A program made the translations under genes and the position numbers. From the NCBI GenBank assembly GCA_017457155.1, contig JAFTHZ010000016.1, positions 56,097-120,096 on the forward strand: a stretch of 64,000 bases of DNA, written 5' to 3'. This document shows, in pieces, positions 32,992 to 39,764 of the stretch. Position 1 is the first letter of the stretch. The number at the start of each line of letters is the position of its first letter. The notes under the pieces are model-generated. The model was not told where the DNA came from. It saw nothing but the letters and a program-made list of their open reading frames with translations, and made no database searches. The DNA comes from Ruminococcus sp. (lineage in GTDB: Bacteria > Bacillota > Clostridia > Oscillospirales > Acutalibacteraceae).

Positions 32992-33675
32992 TTACCCCTC
33001 AAGACCTGCCAGGTGCTTCTGGATGGCGGTGGCGTCTTTGATGTCGCGCTGATGGTCACAGTTGAAGTCTGTAACATAGACAGGAAGTCCCGCTCCGTCA
33101 TGATTGGGTCCTTCATATCTGTTGGATACAATTTCATCAAAACGATCGAATTCTTCCAGACCTGCCAGGCATTTCTGGATATAGGTGGCATCCTTGACGG
33201 TGAGCTTTCTGTCTCCATCAGCATCTCCGATAAGATCTCCTATCTTTGTATTCAGGAATACATTCTCAATTCCCTCAATCCCCATCTCCCAGGCTGTTGA
33301 CAAGGCATATGCCTTATCCTCTGCAGGGACATAGATACCATAGCCGGCTCCAAGCGGATAACTCATAGAATTAGTATACACTACATAATCACCAAACATA
33401 TCCGCACAACCCATGCCAAATTCGAAATTAGATGACAAATAAAAGAGCATATAGTCAGGCTCGCACTCATCGGGAGTATTGCCCGGAGCATAGTATTCAT
33501 ATCTCTCACCATAGAACCATTCAAACTCAGAGCCATCATTAATTTCTTTATATTTAGAAATTACAGCATCTTTGTATTTATATTTATCTTCCGCTGATGC
33601 AGACATGAGGGTGAAACTGCACAGCAGGACCGAAAGCATCAGGACAAAGGACATTATTCTTACTAAACTTTTCAT
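32992..33675 (-). CDS. Small secreted dockerin protein (copy 1 of tandem pair)
   Basis: A 227-residue protein with a signal peptide (MKSLVRIMSFVLML... to SASA), an unrecognised ~120-residue domain and a C-terminal dockerin. The domain contains PGNTPDECEPDY, ADMFGDYVV and GYGIYVPAEDKAYALSTAW. The dockerin has LIGDADGDRKLTVKDATYIQK and, after an unusually long ~28-residue spacer, VTDFNCDHQRDIKDATAIQKHLAGL. No catalytic family is apparent. It follows its paralogue by 20 bases with its own RBS (GAGGTGATATT). It probably attaches to a cohesin scaffold as a non-enzymatic or new component. Confidence 0.88.
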   Translation of the reverse strand: MKSLVRIMSFVLMLSVLLCSFTLMSASAEDKYKYKDAVISKYKEINDGSEFEWFYGERYEYYAPGNTPDECEPDYMLFYLSSNFEFGMGCADMFGDYVVYTNSMSYPLGAGYGIYVPAEDKAYALSTAWEMGIEGIENVFLNTKIGDLIGDADGDRKLTVKDATYIQKCLAGLEEFDRFDEIVSNRYEGPNHDGAGLPVYVTDFNCDHQRDIKDATAIQKHLAGLEG

Positions 33676-33695: not shown

Positions 33696-34373
33696 TTACC
33701 CCTCAAGACCTGCCAGGTGCTTCTGGATGGCGGTGGCGTCCTTGATGTCGCGCTGATGGTCACAGTTGAAGTCTGTAACATAGACAGGAAGTCCCGCTCC
33801 GTCACAATTGGGTCCTTCATATCTGTTGGCTTCAATTTCATCAAAACGATAGAATTCTTCCAGACCTGCCAGACATTTCTGGATATAGGTGGCATCCTTG
33901 ACGGTGAGCTTTCTGTCTCCATCAGCATCTCCGATGAGAGAACCTATCTTTGTATTCAGGAATACATTCTCAATTCCCTCAATACCCATATCCCAGGCCT
34001 TGGACAAGGAATATGCTTTGCCTTCCGCAGGGATATATATACCATATCCACTTCCCAGAGGGTGAGTACCCGATAAACCTTTCACTACATAATCTCCGAA
34101 CATATCTGCATAAGGCATACTAAAGCTCAATGATGTATCCAAGGAGAAAAGCACATAGTCAGGCTCGCACTCATCGGGAGTATTGCCCGGAGAATAATAC
34201 TCATACATCTCTCCATACTCCAATCCAAACTCCATAATATCTCCCTCGTTCAGATATTGAGGTACGATTACATCTTTATACTTATCTTCCGCTGATGCAG
34301 ACATGAGGGTGAAACTGCACAGCAGGACCGAAAGCATCAGGACAAAGGACATTATTCTTACTAAACTTTTCAT
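33696..34373 (-). CDS. Small secreted dockerin protein (copy 2 of tandem pair)
   Basis: A 225-residue paralogue of the neighbouring protein. The 29-residue signal peptide is identical and the dockerin nearly so, while the central domain shares motifs (PGNTPDECEPDY, ADMFGDYVV, GYGIYIPAEGKAYSLSKAW, MGIEGIENVFLNTKIG) but differs at many other places. The ATG at 34373 follows GAGGTGATATT; a longer frame from 34412 has less support. A promoter lies ~110 bases upstream and a possible 11-codon leader ORF lies in between. The two copies are transcribed together. Confidence 0.88.
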   Translation of the reverse strand: MKSLVRIMSFVLMLSVLLCSFTLMSASAEDKYKDVIVPQYLNEGDIMEFGLEYGEMYEYYSPGNTPDECEPDYVLFSLDTSLSFSMPYADMFGDYVVKGLSGTHPLGSGYGIYIPAEGKAYSLSKAWDMGIEGIENVFLNTKIGSLIGDADGDRKLTVKDATYIQKCLAGLEEFYRFDEIEANRYEGPNCDGAGLPVYVTDFNCDHQRDIKDATAIQKHLAGLEG

Positions 34374-34418
34374 AATATCACCTCTTAAAATTTTTGTAAG
34401 TCGCAAACACACAGCAAC

Positions 34419-34656: not shown

Positions 34657-34680
34657 AAAAAAACCTCGGAATATCCGAGG
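34657..34680 (-). terminator. Terminator of the agr operon
   Basis: CCTCGGA-ata-TCCGAGG stem with a seven-base A-run that is the T-tract on the minus strand. Confidence 0.85.
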
Positions 34681-34747: not shown

Positions 34748-34891
34748 TTACTTGCTGAGAAGCTTTCTGAGATTCTTTGGCTCTGAAGTCTGATGGAACA
34801 TATTGGTTGATGCAGAACCTGCAGCAGCCTTGGCAGCGCTGATGGCTGCTTTTTCCAACAGTCTCTTAGAGAGTTTCTTAGCTGACTTCAT
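34748..34891 (-). CDS. agrD: AgrD-like cyclic peptide precursor lacking the core cysteine
   Basis: A 47-residue peptide following agrB and overlapping its 3' end by 14 bases, with AGGAGG seven bases upstream. It has an amphipathic Lys/Leu/Ala N-terminal helix (KSAKKLSKRLLEKAAISAA), a small-residue stretch (KAAAGSA), and a C-terminal part STNMFHQTSEPKNLRKLLSK. AgrD proteins normally read Cys-x3-hydrophobic before a (H/Y)Q..xP tail; here Ser takes the place of Cys and HQTSEP aligns with the HQPKxP tail. I infer a serine lactone ring, STNMF, rather than a thiolactone. No Cys occurs anywhere in it. Confidence 0.78.
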   Translation of the reverse strand: MKSAKKLSKRLLEKAAISAAKAAAGSASTNMFHQTSEPKNLRKLLSK

Positions 34892-35477
34892 CTTGATTCC
34901 TCCTGATTAATTTATTTGTCACAACAGGCACAACCATGGCTATGTCTATTGTAAGACACGTTGGGAGTATTATGAGGAGCTGTTCTATCCCGAGCAGAAA
35001 GTACCCCCCAAGGCACAGTCCGTAGGACAGGGTAATTATGACGAGAGAGATGCGCTTGTATCTCACTCTGTCCTCGGGGGTCAGCTCCTTGTTGACATTG
35101 CCCACAGGCGCCAGCAACAACACGGTCAGCATTGTGAGCAGATACCCTGCCCCGAGTACATACACATTCGATGCAAAATCCCCGAGAAAAAACATGAACG
35201 CCGCCACCAGCACATAGGCCCCCACAGACAGCAGATTGCATCGCAGGTAGGTCATGGCGTGGTAGCCCCCTGTGTAGACTCGTATCCCCGAGAAAAAAGC
35301 AAGGAACAAAACGCTCTCGAGGAAGGTGCGGGTTACAACCCCCACCCCCAGTATCAACAGGGTTGAGATGATCCCCGATATAAGCAGCTCTATGCCGTAG
35401 ACATACACCTGCGAGGGATATTTGTCGTTCTCGTCAAAGAATCGGGTTGCGATTCTGGTTGATATATTATGAAGCAT
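34878..35477 (-). CDS. agrB: AgrB-like autoinducer peptide processing protease
   Basis: A 199-residue membrane cysteine endopeptidase that cuts AgrD and helps close its ring. The catalytic pair is His73 and Cys80 in GGYHAMTYLRC, the family spacing. Four to six hydrophobic segments follow (~35-50, 80-100, 104-125, 148-165, 168-185), and the N-terminal region has the usual amphipathic helix ISTRIATRF. Its RBS, GGTGAGG, is directly before the ATG and lies in the arm of a large hairpin with a terminator. agrD overlaps its end, so they are coupled. Confidence 0.93.
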   Translation of the reverse strand: MLHNISTRIATRFFDENDKYPSQVYVYGIELLISGIISTLLILGVGVVTRTFLESVLFLAFFSGIRVYTGGYHAMTYLRCNLLSVGAYVLVAAFMFFLGDFASNVYVLGAGYLLTMLTVLLLAPVGNVNKELTPEDRVRYKRISLVIITLSYGLCLGGYFLLGIEQLLIILPTCLTIDIAMVVPVVTNKLIRRNQDEVS

Positions 35478-35547
35478 ATCCTCACCAAAAATAAAACAAA
35501 AAATAATGCTACTACCTTCCTAAGAAAATAGTAGCATTATTGGTGAG
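35478..35547 (-). promoter_or_regulatory. Terminator/SD-sequestering hairpin between agrC and agrB
   Basis: On the minus strand, AATAATGCTACTA (35541-35529 complement) pairs perfectly with TAGTAGCATTATT (35514-35502 complement), followed by a T-rich run: an intrinsic terminator. The flank 5' CTCACCAA (35547-35540) can also pair with TTGGTGAG (35488-35481), which contains the agrB SD. The terminator ends ~17 bases before the agrB start, leaving no room for a promoter after it, so agrBD expression needs read-through. Confidence 0.8.
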
Positions 35548-35600
35548 ATAAATGTTGAAAATGGTATACTTGGTATGTTTTCTGGTAAAGTCTGCACTCT

Positions 35601-36932
35601 TTATTGATTTTTATTCACAAAAACCGTCATTTCGAACCATCCGTCCGCTTCTTTGCAGCTTACGCTTCCGCCGTATTGGGCGGCAAGTTTTCTGACGATA
35701 GAGACACCTTTGCCGTGGTTTTTCTTGTCAGACTTGGTTGATAACAGGTCGGGGTTTGACTCCAGAACAGAATGGGAAATGGAATTTTTGCAGACTATCA
35801 CCGCAAAATCTATATGAGCAGAAATCTTCAGGCTCATCTTGCGGTTATCCGCAGGCTGAGAGACAAGATACTCGATAGCATTGTCACACAGGTTGCCGAC
35901 CAGAGAAACCGTATCCTCAGAGGACAGCTGTGTCAGGTGATCGTTCACCTCAACTTGGAAGTCAATGCCCGAGGAGGCTGCCTTCTCCTGCTCTACGTTG
36001 ACAATAGCATTGAGCACAGGGTTGGGGGTGTTGATGGGTGTATATGCAGAGGACAGGGTGTCTATGGCTCTGTGGCACAGCTGAGACGCCTCCTGATAGC
36101 TACCCTTTGAGATAAGCTCGTGGACAGTATTCAAATGGTTCTTCATATCGTGCTTGACAGATGATATGGTCTTTATCTGCTCGTTGGAGGACAGGATGCT
36201 CTCCTCGTAGAGTTTCTCCCTCTGAGTTGTGAGCAGGAGCTCTGTCTTTATCTCGTTTGCCTTGCCTATACGCACAAGCATAAAGCAGGTGAGGATAGTG
36301 ATAACCGCCACAATCAGATAAATACTCAGGATATAGGGCAGAATCGCAGATGAGAAGCCCGACATCTGATGGATGAAAAGTCCGCAGTAAAACACAACCA
36401 GGCACAGCACAGGGATGACGATGAAGGCGGTTATCTCTGCCGCACCCGAAAGCCAGATACGGGTTGAGAAGAGCTTATACACAAGCCAGAGCACCACTGC
36501 GAAGGTGATGTTGACTACCGCTATACACAAGTACCTGAAGTCTGACGAAAGCACCATTGCATCAGCAATAGAAAGTCCCGATACTGCACTGGCAAAATAG
36601 ACAAATGTAAAGGACACCAGTGCATTTAGTCCAAAAGCAATCAGCGGCATAATTATCCGCAGATACAGCTTGCCCCTAAGGAATATGAGGGAATACAGCA
36701 GCATCACGAGAACATACAGCACCGAATCAAGATAATAAACATCGTAACTGAAAAACGTACTATTCAGGGTAAAGAACGTGCACACCCCAAAGAACACAAA
36801 CACAGCACCGAAGAAAGACAATGCCCTCCTGAGCTTTCCCTCGGGTTTGTCAAACAATAGGTATAGAAACCCTATATACAGGAAACTCTGAAAAAGATTT
36901 GCCAAAAATTCTACCGTCATTGCAACTAACAT
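35601..36932 (-). CDS. agrC: AgrC-like sensor histidine kinase (GHKL family)
   Basis: Receptor kinase for the processed peptide. Six to seven transmembrane helices fill residues 1-~205, then a dimerisation helix with the phospho-acceptor His in SSVKHDMKNHLNTV (~258) and a GHKL ATPase domain with GNLCDNAIEYL (N box) and KKNHGKGVSIVRKLAAQYGG (G box). ATG at 36932 is chosen because GGTGAG lies six bases upstream and it overlaps the agrA stop by seven bases; an ATG at 36950 would add six residues. Paired with AgrA. Confidence 0.92.
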   Translation of the reverse strand: MLVAMTVEFLANLFQSFLYIGFLYLLFDKPEGKLRRALSFFGAVFVFFGVCTFFTLNSTFFSYDVYYLDSVLYVLVMLLYSLIFLRGKLYLRIIMPLIAFGLNALVSFTFVYFASAVSGLSIADAMVLSSDFRYLCIAVVNITFAVVLWLVYKLFSTRIWLSGAAEITAFIVIPVLCLVVFYCGLFIHQMSGFSSAILPYILSIYLIVAVITILTCFMLVRIGKANEIKTELLLTTQREKLYEESILSSNEQIKTISSVKHDMKNHLNTVHELISKGSYQEASQLCHRAIDTLSSAYTPINTPNPVLNAIVNVEQEKAASSGIDFQVEVNDHLTQLSSEDTVSLVGNLCDNAIEYLVSQPADNRKMSLKISAHIDFAVIVCKNSISHSVLESNPDLLSTKSDKKNHGKGVSIVRKLAAQYGGSVSCKEADGWFEMTVFVNKNQ

Positions 36933-37639
36933 CTGTTGCTCACCATCCATTCCATGTATTCTTCCCTGAAAGAAGTTCTATACCCGCGGCTGATGCTTAT
37001 AACCTTGCCGTTTGTAAGCTTTATGTAGTCTTTTTTGTACTCAACTATGCAGGCGGCGTTGACCACATAGCCCACGTGAGGCCGAACGAACCCATGGGCA
37101 GAGAGCTCCTTGTGAAGTGGTGTGAGGGTCGCCCTCTCCTGCACCTCCCCGTCCTTTGTATAGAAGCTCACATAGTTGCCGTGCTTCTCAAGATATATCA
37201 CCCGCCTGAGCTCTATCTGCCTCAGGTCCCTGCCACTCTTCAGGGTATAGGTGGGAGAAACAATGAACTTCTTGTTTATATTCAGGACACACAGCTCGAT
37301 CTCGTCTATATGAGATTTGCGGACAAAGGAGTATGGATACTTCTTCAGCGCTTCAAACACAAGGTGATCGTGTGCAGTGACGAACACTATGTAGGGAAGC
37401 TCACTGCAGTCACGCTCGGCATTTATCCTGTCGGCTATCTCCAGCCCGTTCATTATGGGCATATCAATATCAAGAAAAATAATGTCGAATTTAGAATAAA
37501 CATCCCTCTGGATAATATCATCGGGAGCGTCCATTATCGTTGACTTCAGACTGAAGCCGTGCTTGACACACACAAGATCAAGGGCATTTTTGAGCCTATG
37601 TGCAAAGACAGGGTCGTCGTCTACAATACAAACTTTCAT
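36926..37639 (-). CDS. agrA: AgrA-like LytTR response regulator
   Basis: A 237-residue response regulator with a receiver domain (1-~120; phosphoacceptor Asp57 in FLDIDMP, acidic pocket at VDDDP) and a LytTR DNA-binding domain (~135-237; SGRDLRQIELRRVIYLEKHGN, HKELSAHGFVRPHVGYVVN). It should bind direct repeats of the Agr type. It heads the operon agrA-agrC-(terminator)-agrB-agrD, which reverses the staphylococcal order agrB-D-C-A. RBS GGTAAGG precedes the ATG. Confidence 0.93.
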   Translation of the reverse strand: MKVCIVDDDPVFAHRLKNALDLVCVKHGFSLKSTIMDAPDDIIQRDVYSKFDIIFLDIDMPIMNGLEIADRINAERDCSELPYIVFVTAHDHLVFEALKKYPYSFVRKSHIDEIELCVLNINKKFIVSPTYTLKSGRDLRQIELRRVIYLEKHGNYVSFYTKDGEVQERATLTPLHKELSAHGFVRPHVGYVVNAACIVEYKKDYIKLTNGKVISISRGYRTSFREEYMEWMVSNRC

Positions 37640-37681: not shown

Positions 37682-37710
37682 ATAATAAAGAAAAATATAA
37701 TGTTTGTCAA
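37682..37710 (-). promoter_or_regulatory. Promoter of the agr operon
   Basis: Consensus TTGACA (37710-37705), 17 bases, TATTAT (37687-37682), divergent from the T-box promoter 40 bases away. Confidence 0.75.
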
Positions 37711-37784: not shown

Positions 37785-38107
37785 ATTCTTCATAAGCACA
37801 AATGCATTGACCGGAAAATAGTACGCTATTCTTCCTTGTTTTCAGAGAGTCGGCGGCTGGTGTGAGCCGACAGCAGGGGTAGCCGAATACATTCCGAGAG
37901 CAGCGCACCGAACCTCTGGATTATTCTCTCGAAGAATTTTATCAGTCAGTAGGCTGCGACGGAGCCGTCCGTTATGCGGCTGGGTAGGAGTCCGCTCGTA
38001 CCCGTTGAGGTCCCCGGGCCGTGAGGCAGGGACAAATTGAGGTGGTACCACGATTTATTCGTCCTCAAAGGCACTTTTCATTTACTGTGCTTTTGAGGTT
38101 TTTTTAT
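37785..38107 (+). promoter_or_regulatory. T-box riboswitch leader
   Basis: A tRNA-sensing antitermination leader. Stem I base CGGAA (37812-37816) pairs with TTCCG (37892-37896); AGTA box at 37820-37823 faces GAA at 37885-37887; the distal GNTG box (GGCTGGTGTGA) is at 37855-37865; the T-box GAGGTGGTACCACG is at 38039-38052; a terminator stem CCTCAAAGGCAC...GTGCTTTTGAGG with T-run is at 38063-38107. The specifier directly after GAA is TAC (Tyr); if one base intervenes it is ACA (Thr). The frame of the specifier is not certain. Confidence 0.92.
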
Positions 38108-38129
38108 TTTTTATATGGAGGAATTTTCT

Positions 38130-39764
38130 GTGACTATTATTGATATGCTGGAGCGCAACGCAGCTGAGTTTGCATCTGACGTTGCTCTGGTAGAGATAAA
38201 CCCCGGTCAGGCTGAGACAAGACGTCTGACCTGGCGCGACTACGACCTGGTTGAAAGCGAGAAGAAGTACTTCCGCAGAGAGATCACCTGGGGAGTTTTC
38301 AACGAAAAAGCAAACCGCTTTGCCAATGCTCTCATTGCCCGCGGAATCAAGAAGGGCGACAAGGTTGCCATCCTGCTGATGAACTGCATCGAGTGGCTGC
38401 CCATATACTTTGGAATCCTCAAGACAGGCGCTCTGGCTGTTCCGCTGAACTTCCGTTACTCCAGCGATGAGATCGAATACTGCCTGAAGCTTGCTGAGTG
38501 CGACGCCCTTGTGTTCGGTCCTGAGTTCATCGGCCGAGTAGAGGATATTGTGGAGTCCATCAGCATCAATCGTCTGCTTATCTTCGCAGGAGGTCAGGGC
38601 TGTCCTACCTTTGCCGAGGACTACAACGATATGACCTTGGAGTGCTCATCCCAGTCTCCCAGGGTCTCCCTCATCGAGGAGGACTATGCGGCTATATACT
38701 TCTCATCAGGCACCACAGGATTCCCCAAGGCTATCCTCCACAAGCACCAGAGTCTGACACATTCCTGCAAGGTTGAGCAGAATCACCACGGCCAGACAAA
38801 GGACGACGTCTTCCTGTGTATCCCTCCCCTGTACCACACAGGCGCCAAGATGCACTGGTTCGGCAGCCTCCTTGTGGGCGGCAAATCCGTCCTCCTCAAG
38901 GGCACCCGTCCCGAGTATGTGCTGGATGCTGTATCCAAGGAGAAATGCACCATCGTCTGGCTGCTTGTTCCCTGGACACAGGATATACTCAACGCTCTTG
39001 ACAGCGGCGAGATAAACAAAGACGACTACGAGCTTTCTCAGTGGAGACTGATGCACATCGGCGCTCAGCCTGTGCCCCGCAGTCTCATCAGACGCTGGAA
39101 AGAATACTTCCCCGACCACCAGTACGACACCAACTACGGTCTGTCCGAGTCCATCGGCCCCGGTTGTGTACACCTGGGAGTTGAGAACATCCACAAGGTT
39201 GGCGCCATCGGCAAGCCCGGCTACGGCTGGGAGGTCAAGATAGTTGACGAGAACAACAACATCGTCACCCCCGGCGAGGTCGGCGAGCTGTGTGTCAAGG
39301 GCCCCGGTGTTATGACCTGCTACTACAACGACGAGAAGGCTACCGCCGCTTCTATCAAGGACGGCTGGCTCTACACAGGAGACATGGCAAAAGAGGACGA
39401 GGACGGCTTTATCTTCCTTGTTGACAGAAAGAAGGACGTCATTATCTCAGGCGGAGAGAATATCTATCCTGTTCAGATCGAAGACTTCCTCAGTGCTCAC
39501 GAGGCAATCAGCGACGTAGCTGTCATCGGTCTGCCCGATGAGCGTCTGGGCGAGATTTCTGCGGCTATCATAGAACTGAAGAAGGGCTACACTGCCACAG
39601 AGGAGGAGATCCGCGAGTTCTGCAAGGGTATGCCCAGATACAAGCGCCCCTACAAGATCATCTTCGCTGATGTTCCCCGTAACCCCACCGGCAAGATCGA
39701 AAAGCCCAGACTCAGAGAGATGTACGGCGGTGCACAGCTGGTAGACGCCCAGAACAAATCATAA
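38130..39764 (+). CDS. AMP-forming acyl-CoA synthetase/ligase
   Basis: Adenylate-forming enzyme (ANL superfamily) that activates a carboxylic acid with ATP and CoA. The P-loop-like motif IYFSSGTTGFPKA, YGLSESIG, the GWLYTGDMAKEDEDGFIFLVDRKKD hinge region (first 20 quoted at most in family terms: YTGDMAKEDEDGF) and the C-terminal PTGKIEK with the catalytic Lys are all present. At 544 residues it is full length, with no signal peptide. GTG at 38130 is taken as start, with GGAGG eight bases upstream; the ATG at 38115 overlaps that RBS. It is the only gene after a T-box, so its substrate may derive from an amino acid. Substrate unknown. Confidence 0.9.
   Translation: MTIIDMLERNAAEFASDVALVEINPGQAETRRLTWRDYDLVESEKKYFRREITWGVFNEKANRFANALIARGIKKGDKVAILLMNCIEWLPIYFGILKTGALAVPLNFRYSSDEIEYCLKLAECDALVFGPEFIGRVEDIVESISINRLLIFAGGQGCPTFAEDYNDMTLECSSQSPRVSLIEEDYAAIYFSSGTTGFPKAILHKHQSLTHSCKVEQNHHGQTKDDVFLCIPPLYHTGAKMHWFGSLLVGGKSVLLKGTRPEYVLDAVSKEKCTIVWLLVPWTQDILNALDSGEINKDDYELSQWRLMHIGAQPVPRSLIRRWKEYFPDHQYDTNYGLSESIGPGCVHLGVENIHKVGAIGKPGYGWEVKIVDENNNIVTPGEVGELCVKGPGVMTCYYNDEKATAASIKDGWLYTGDMAKEDEDGFIFLVDRKKDVIISGGENIYPVQIEDFLSAHEAISDVAVIGLPDERLGEISAAIIELKKGYTATEEEIREFCKGMPRYKRPYKIIFADVPRNPTGKIEKPRLREMYGGAQLVDAQNKS

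Follow-up and report, generated by a model that had tools for sequence, protein, structure and literature searches.

A candidate AgrA-type promoter nested in a terminator hairpin between agrC and agrB of a Ruminococcus agr locus

An autoinducing circuit in which the sensor genes lie just 5′ of the signal genes should leak signal by read-through. How, then, are the signal genes agrB and agrD transcribed in a locus with the minus-strand order agrA-agrC-agrB-agrD, as found here in the window (the whole 64,000-nt stretch of DNA that was analyzed) from a Ruminococcus sp. draft genome (G000; 1.64 Mb, 40 contigs, 88.95% complete)?

The agr locus and the hairpin between agrC and agrB

All components of an agr quorum-sensing locus, namely AgrB, AgrD, a histidine kinase and a LytTR response regulator, were identified by Pfam and NCBIfam on the minus strand of the window. 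agrA (36926..37639) encodes a response regulator with a LytTR DNA-binding domain (PF00072, E 1.1e-12; LytTR PF04397, E 1.5e-15), agrC (35601..36950) a sensor histidine kinase (HATPase_c_5 PF14501, E 3.7e-17), agrB (34878..35477) the AgrD-processing membrane protein (PF04647, E 1.1e-30), and agrD (34748..34891), which overlaps the end of agrB, the cyclic peptide signal precursor (TIGR04223, 26.9 bits with a cut-off of 19). A likely constitutive agrAC promoter, TTGACA-17-TATTAT with 11/12 consensus matches, was predicted at 37682..37710 on the same strand, and a pattern scan of the window allowing up to two mismatches found no AgrA-box match at this promoter. A terminator-like hairpin (34664..34680, minus strand) is located 3′ of agrD, while the gap between agrC and agrB measures 123 nt.

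Inspection by eye of the AgrD-like peptides of 12 loci showed a conserved Ser at the expected ring position (AS, a short stretch and then Q/H-Q-P/T), and most of them have no Cys there, which would suggest that the AgrD signal is a lactone and not a thiolactone. Directly after agrD, a tandem pair of similar secreted proteins with dockerin-like ends is encoded (32992-33675 and 33696-34412); neither matches Dockerin_1 at 0.001, the second one reaching only E 0.21.

Between agrC and agrB, a hairpin was found on the minus strand (35502..35541) that, read from 35541 to 35502, consists of the 5′ arm AATAATGCTACTATTTTC, the 4-nt loop TTAG and the 3′ arm GAAGGTAGTAGCATTATT. Its stem has 18 pairs, four of which are G-C, and the outer 13 pairs (35541-35529 with 35514-35502) are all perfect Watson-Crick; the T-rich tail TTTTGTTTTATTTTT (35487..35501, minus strand) follows directly. 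These outer pairs and the tail are the 13-bp perfect stem with a T-rich tail before agrB that the first-pass annotation had reported, with the correction that the stem ends 24 bases, not 17, from the agrB ATG (35477). The minimum free energy (MFE) of the 139-nt region is −37.8 kcal/mol compared with −19.64 ± 3.23 in 200 shuffles (z −5.62), none of which was as low (0/200). A stable hairpin with a T-rich tract directly after it is what an intrinsic terminator consists of, and termination is predicted at this site; the proposal that a terminator splits agrAC from agrBD thereby appears to hold. Conservation of the stem in close relatives had been set as a check, and the stem is indeed kept in the two closest relatives found, both of the same genus and identified by AgrB match: Ruminococcus sp. 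RGIG4579 from roe deer rectum (G071, JAFUKO010000006.1) and Oscillospiraceae bacterium SIG571 (G052, SVOS01000016.1).

No riboswitch, T-box or known leader RNA was matched at the hairpin by Rfam at gathering scores, the whole window giving one T-box (37798-38069) and two tRNAs. This T-box leader (116.3 bits) precedes the gene 38115-39764, which by eye has the look of an AMP-binding ligase and is not an obvious aminoacyl-tRNA synthetase. A mobile hairpin repeat was considered and rejected, because a DNA search of the own genome matched the hairpin only at itself.

A predicted AgrA-type promoter reaching into the stem

On the 5′ side of the hairpin, two 9-bp direct repeats are placed 21 bp apart, leaving 12 bp between them, in the layout of a LytTR/AgrA site. 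They were assigned as the distal half-site TTTACCAGA (35581..35589, minus strand) and the proximal half-site TATACCATT (35560..35568, minus strand) of a putative AgrA box. LytTR sites have been described as 9-bp repeats, mostly 12 bp apart, that lie 5′ of promoters, several of which carry an extended −10 (PMC6193735). By a joint call of the repeats and the −10, an extended −10 of the form TGC-TACTAT (TGCTACTAT, 35528..35536, minus strand) was predicted within the 5′ arm of the terminator stem, and therefore the predicted transcription start, an A at 35521 (minus strand) placed 7 nt past the −10 hexamer, falls in the hairpin loop. Relative to this predicted start, the half-site centers are found at about −43 and −64; the proximal AgrA repeats of S. 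aureus are centered near −60 (PMC4227749). The −10 hexamer of the window matches the consensus at 4/6 positions with no convincing −35, and a sigma-70 scan gave nothing on the minus strand there and only a weak plus-strand match (35543-35570) that was within background.

Searching the own genome at the DNA level, we found that the 40-50 nt directly 5′ of the hairpin recur at two further places, sharing the box core TTTACCAGA-N12-TATACCA, whose period as a direct repeat is 21 bp. Exact sites of this box number four in the genome, one at agrB, one before an agrD-like remnant on contig C6 and two opposed ones on contig C7. When one mismatch was allowed, seven matches were obtained versus five for the reversed control pattern, and the three mismatched matches were therefore regarded as background. 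None of the other three exact boxes is directly behind agrC, and within 130 nt from the box none of them has a stem of at least 8 Watson-Crick pairs.

Some of the surroundings of these boxes are worth recording. Behind one of the two opposed box promoters on C7, a 104-nt stretch with three hairpins (L003 1362-1465, minus strand) has a fold of −43.9 kcal/mol (z −7.84) and could be an AgrA-controlled small RNA, as a loose counterpart of RNAIII. The other box promoter is followed by a PqqD-type peptide chaperone gene (L003 1663-1929, plus strand; PF05402, E 4.3e-18), so a modified-peptide pathway may be under AgrA control as well. On C6 (L002 1500-1720), the box site stands before the decayed end of an agrD-like sequence (PKNLRK, by eye), downstream of which about the same sequence is found as after agrD of the window, including, by eye, similar secreted proteins; box and agrD-like end are possibly the remnant of a second agrBD copy.

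Judging from the sequence, the feature is probably an intrinsic terminator with an activator-dependent agrBD promoter nested inside it. Transcription of agrAC would begin at a consensus-like promoter of its own and end at the hairpin before agrB. Once the peptide is sensed by AgrC, AgrA would bind the direct repeats (35589-35560), and RNA polymerase would be recruited to the extended −10 that lies in the 5′ stem arm. The RNA born at this promoter would start in the loop and, because the 5′ arm is missing, could not form the terminator and would run through agrBD; the computed MFE of the region is −36.7 kcal/mol with the 5′ arm and −10.1 kcal/mol without it. Signal production would in this way depend on AgrA and be shielded from transcription of the sensor genes. 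Within this scheme, we infer AgrA as the binder, the exact start, the termination efficiency and the insulating purpose.

Promoter signature and hairpin nesting across relatives

AgrB relatives were detected in 28 of 161 genus genomes (E up to 0.001) and in 60 of 398 sampled family genomes (E up to 1e-10). The scan of agrB upstream regions covered 91 loci, excluding those cut by contig ends (G151, G402, G279, G434, G532 and G285), one with internal stops (G173), the fragmentary matches G382 and G550, duplicate loci and the weak second AgrB matches of the genus search. A joint signature, defined as a 9-bp repeat (at least 7/9 matching at a lag of 21 bp) plus TGnTAnnnT at 48-57 nt further, was found in 19 of the 91 regions, while 100 sets of dinucleotide shuffles gave a mean of 0.37 and a maximum of 4; among the 35 loci tagged by a crude motif test as having an agrC-type gene upstream, 14 had it (shuffle mean 0.21). 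No promoter call was obtained for 72 of the 91 loci, or for 21 of the 35 tagged ones. The thresholds and the distance range of the signature were chosen after data inspection, and therefore other spacings serve as the fair control: the same joint test at lags 15-20 and 22-30 gave 0 to 2 loci. In 12 relatives, which were picked after inspecting 18 upstream sequences, the best self-match peaked only at the 21-bp lag (z 8.3 over mononucleotide shuffles; next 2.7). The repeat sequence varies among genomes and both half-sites change together, such that both copies read TACATCA in G071, TTTCCCAGA in G147, TTAGACAAA in G299 and CGCGGACAA in G214.

A T-tailed hairpin within 170 nt 5′ of agrB was present at 15 of the 91 loci, seven of which also have the signature. 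At five of these seven loci, G000, G071, G052, G155 and G320, the last belonging to another genus, the 5′ arm contains the TGCTA core of the −10 and ends 3, 4, 5, 10 and 1 nt before the predicted start, respectively. At the other two (G214 and G186) the hairpin is wholly 5′ of the −10, and at none of the seven does it come after the predicted start. Eight loci have a T-tailed hairpin without promoter call (G140b, G022, G171, G365, G401, G196, G294 and G225); in G196, the hairpin may come after the start, by eye. Stem pairs were counted by register on the fixed TGCTA (a MAFFT alignment misplaced the 3′ arms of the five stems), and the pairs −3, −2, −1, +5, +6 and +9, which lie outside TGCTA, show changes in both arms when some of the five genomes are compared, yet still pair. 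Pairing of the pre-start segment with the leader beat 300/300 shuffles in G000, G071, G052 and G320 and 299/300 in G155. In this 19-locus test, which gives uncorrected per-locus figures and for which the −10 was placed by hand in G563, G401, G051 and G258, shuffles did as well as the real sequence in 1/300 cases for G563, 3/300 each for G258 and G148 and 18/300 for G147, and 10 of the 14 loci besides the five carriers do not stand out.

In a tree of 30 AgrB proteins, the five nested-hairpin carriers need three state changes. They fall in one weakly supported group (83/87) together with two non-carriers, and one gain with two losses of the nested hairpin is possible. A well supported clade unites G000, G071 and G052, so the five carriers are not five independent cases. 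Among the 17 same-genus loci tagged with agrC upstream, the nested hairpin is missing in 13: five (G001, G040, G089, G039 and G150) have the signature without the terminator, and their agrBD would therefore be open to read-through, and eight (G115, G140, G168, G051, G002, two in G022, and G171) have no signature call. The nested terminator would therefore be an insulating addition in part of the family, not a universal element. In G365 the hairpin directly follows agrC, well 5′ of agrB, and in G147 and G148 the gene before agrB is not tagged as agrC; in the upstream sequences of seven more distant named loci, no nested hairpin was seen by eye.

Alternative readings and comparison with known systems

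The first-pass annotation had further claimed that the 5′ flank of the stem can pair with, and sequester, the agrB Shine-Dalgarno sequence. The complementarity does exist, between the octamer CTCACCAA (35540..35547, minus strand), whose last AA is the start of the stem, and TTGGTGAG (35481..35488, minus strand), which contains the Shine-Dalgarno GGTGAG; in the lowest-energy fold, however, the Shine-Dalgarno region pairs with the upstream CTTTACCAGAAA, a part of the repeat, and not with CTCACCAA. The octamer is not conserved, its pairing being absent by eye from G071 and G052. On the minus strand of the window (35541-35568), CTCACCA occurs another 21 bp from the proximal half-site with two mismatches to the box pattern, and CTCACCAA might instead be a third, poor half-site.

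A double lock, in which the terminator is combined with a read-through RNA that hides the agrB Shine-Dalgarno sequence by upstream pairing, as in T4 gene e, is unlikely for the window. The computed unpaired probability of the Shine-Dalgarno region is 0.15 in the read-through RNA versus 0.13 in the promoter-born RNA, which does not predict a ribosome-binding site hidden only in the longer RNA, and with shuffled upstream segments the Shine-Dalgarno pairing was as good in 18 of 100 cases. Over the 16 loci of the pairing-probability test (per-locus, uncorrected; −10 placed by hand in G563, G401 and G051), no general trend toward such a lock was found. With the pairing probability the same with and without the 5′ part, the lock was rejected for the window and the sequestering claim dropped. 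It finds a better case in G563 (L070), where, behind an agrC-type gene, GGAGG is buried in a 16-pair stem that has one bulge and carries the −10 in its loop; this agrB ribosome site pairs with the segment 5′ of the −10, as a ribosome-site version of the nesting. Weaker stems cover the ribosome site or the start in G258 and G148, neither of which is tagged as behind agrC.

A plain agrAC terminator that overlaps the agrBD promoter by chance, out of compactness and not as designed insulation, is very unlikely in our estimate. T-tailed hairpins are found further 5′, apart from agrB, in G365, G171, G225, G186 and G214, and G115 and G140 also have stems further 5′ of agrB, so a terminator can lie next to the promoter; the intergenic gaps are also short. 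Chance overlap, however, sits poorly with the five loci whose 5′ arm holds the −10 core and is closely followed by the predicted start, and with arms that stay paired despite sequence change, and compactness and insulation are not mutually exclusive. Regulated attenuation, the reading first offered for this locus, in which only upstream transcripts carried past the hairpin by antitermination or an RNA switch would read agrBD, and the Shine-Dalgarno would be locked as well, draws on the strong hairpin with its T-tail and on the pairing capacity of the 5′ flank, but is highly improbable given the conserved activator-type promoter signature that is located in the agrC-agrB gap and extends into the stem, the lack of an Rfam match at the site at gathering scores, the non-conserved CTCACCAA pairing, and a start feeding agrB from within 35480-35540, named at the outset as the finding that would speak against such gating, which the comparison places, as a predicted and not a mapped position, at 35521 with its −10 in the stem.

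The preferred reading, a terminator with the agrBD promoter nested inside, builds on features that are computed: the hairpin, the repeats that part of the family has at fixed spacing with a −10, the location of this −10 in the 5′ arm, and stem changes on both sides. Against it count the small number of G-C pairs (four) in the stem and the 13 of 17 same-genus loci without a nested hairpin. More tentatively, and with somewhat less than an even chance of being right, nesting of an AgrA-dependent signal-gene promoter in a hairpin may be a recurrent agr design in the family that was reached more than once, in a terminator form (the window, G071, G052, G155 and G320) and a ribosome-site form (G563, perhaps G258 and G148), making signal production strictly conditional on signal reception.

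A terminator-nested promoter would stop the leak in some 40 bp and would offer a ready-made insulated element for circuit design. It also suggests a testable cause of possible threshold differences between agr loci, and AgrA targets in uncultured gut bacteria could be sought by means of the 21-bp repeat with the extended −10.

Protection of a gene from outside transcription is familiar from the transposase of IS10/Tn10, where the read-through RNA folds over the ribosome site and the RNA from its own promoter does not. The locus studied here would share this difference in folding between the two RNAs, whereas IS10/Tn10 is a mobile element protected at the translational level and without activator feedback. 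In the open-licence literature searched, no description of the IS10/Tn10 protection or of a terminator-nested agr promoter was recognized.

In the late genes e, soc and I-TevI of phage T4, an inhibitory hairpin has the late promoter within the DNA that encodes its 5′ strand (PMC3014915, PMC2988022). As in T4, the long upstream RNA with both arms would be silenced and the nested-promoter RNA without the 5′ arm expressed; the window has the same nesting, by predicted positions, of a promoter element in the 5′ arm and an RNA that lacks this arm. Unlike T4, where translation is blocked by hiding the ribosome site, the element here is an apparent intrinsic terminator, and it belongs to a quorum-sensing locus that is chromosomal and has a LytTR-type activator site. 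Among clostridial systems, a single transcript has been suggested for C. difficile agrACDB, and agrBD and agrCA of C. acetobutylicum have been predicted to be separate units (PMC3754575); agrAC and the signal genes may likewise form separate units here, and the sections consulted of that paper make no mention of a nested terminator-promoter. The S. aureus agr P2/P3 region resembles the window in having a LytTR-type AgrA at paired direct repeats 5′ of the agrBD promoter (PMC4227749). In S. aureus, however, agrBDCA is one transcript (RNAII) under positive feedback (PMC3754575), whereas the present locus has the order agrA-agrC-agrB-agrD, its own predicted agrAC promoter and an intervening terminator. 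The logic of a nested promoter is already known from the T4 late genes, and its terminator form in agr looks new.
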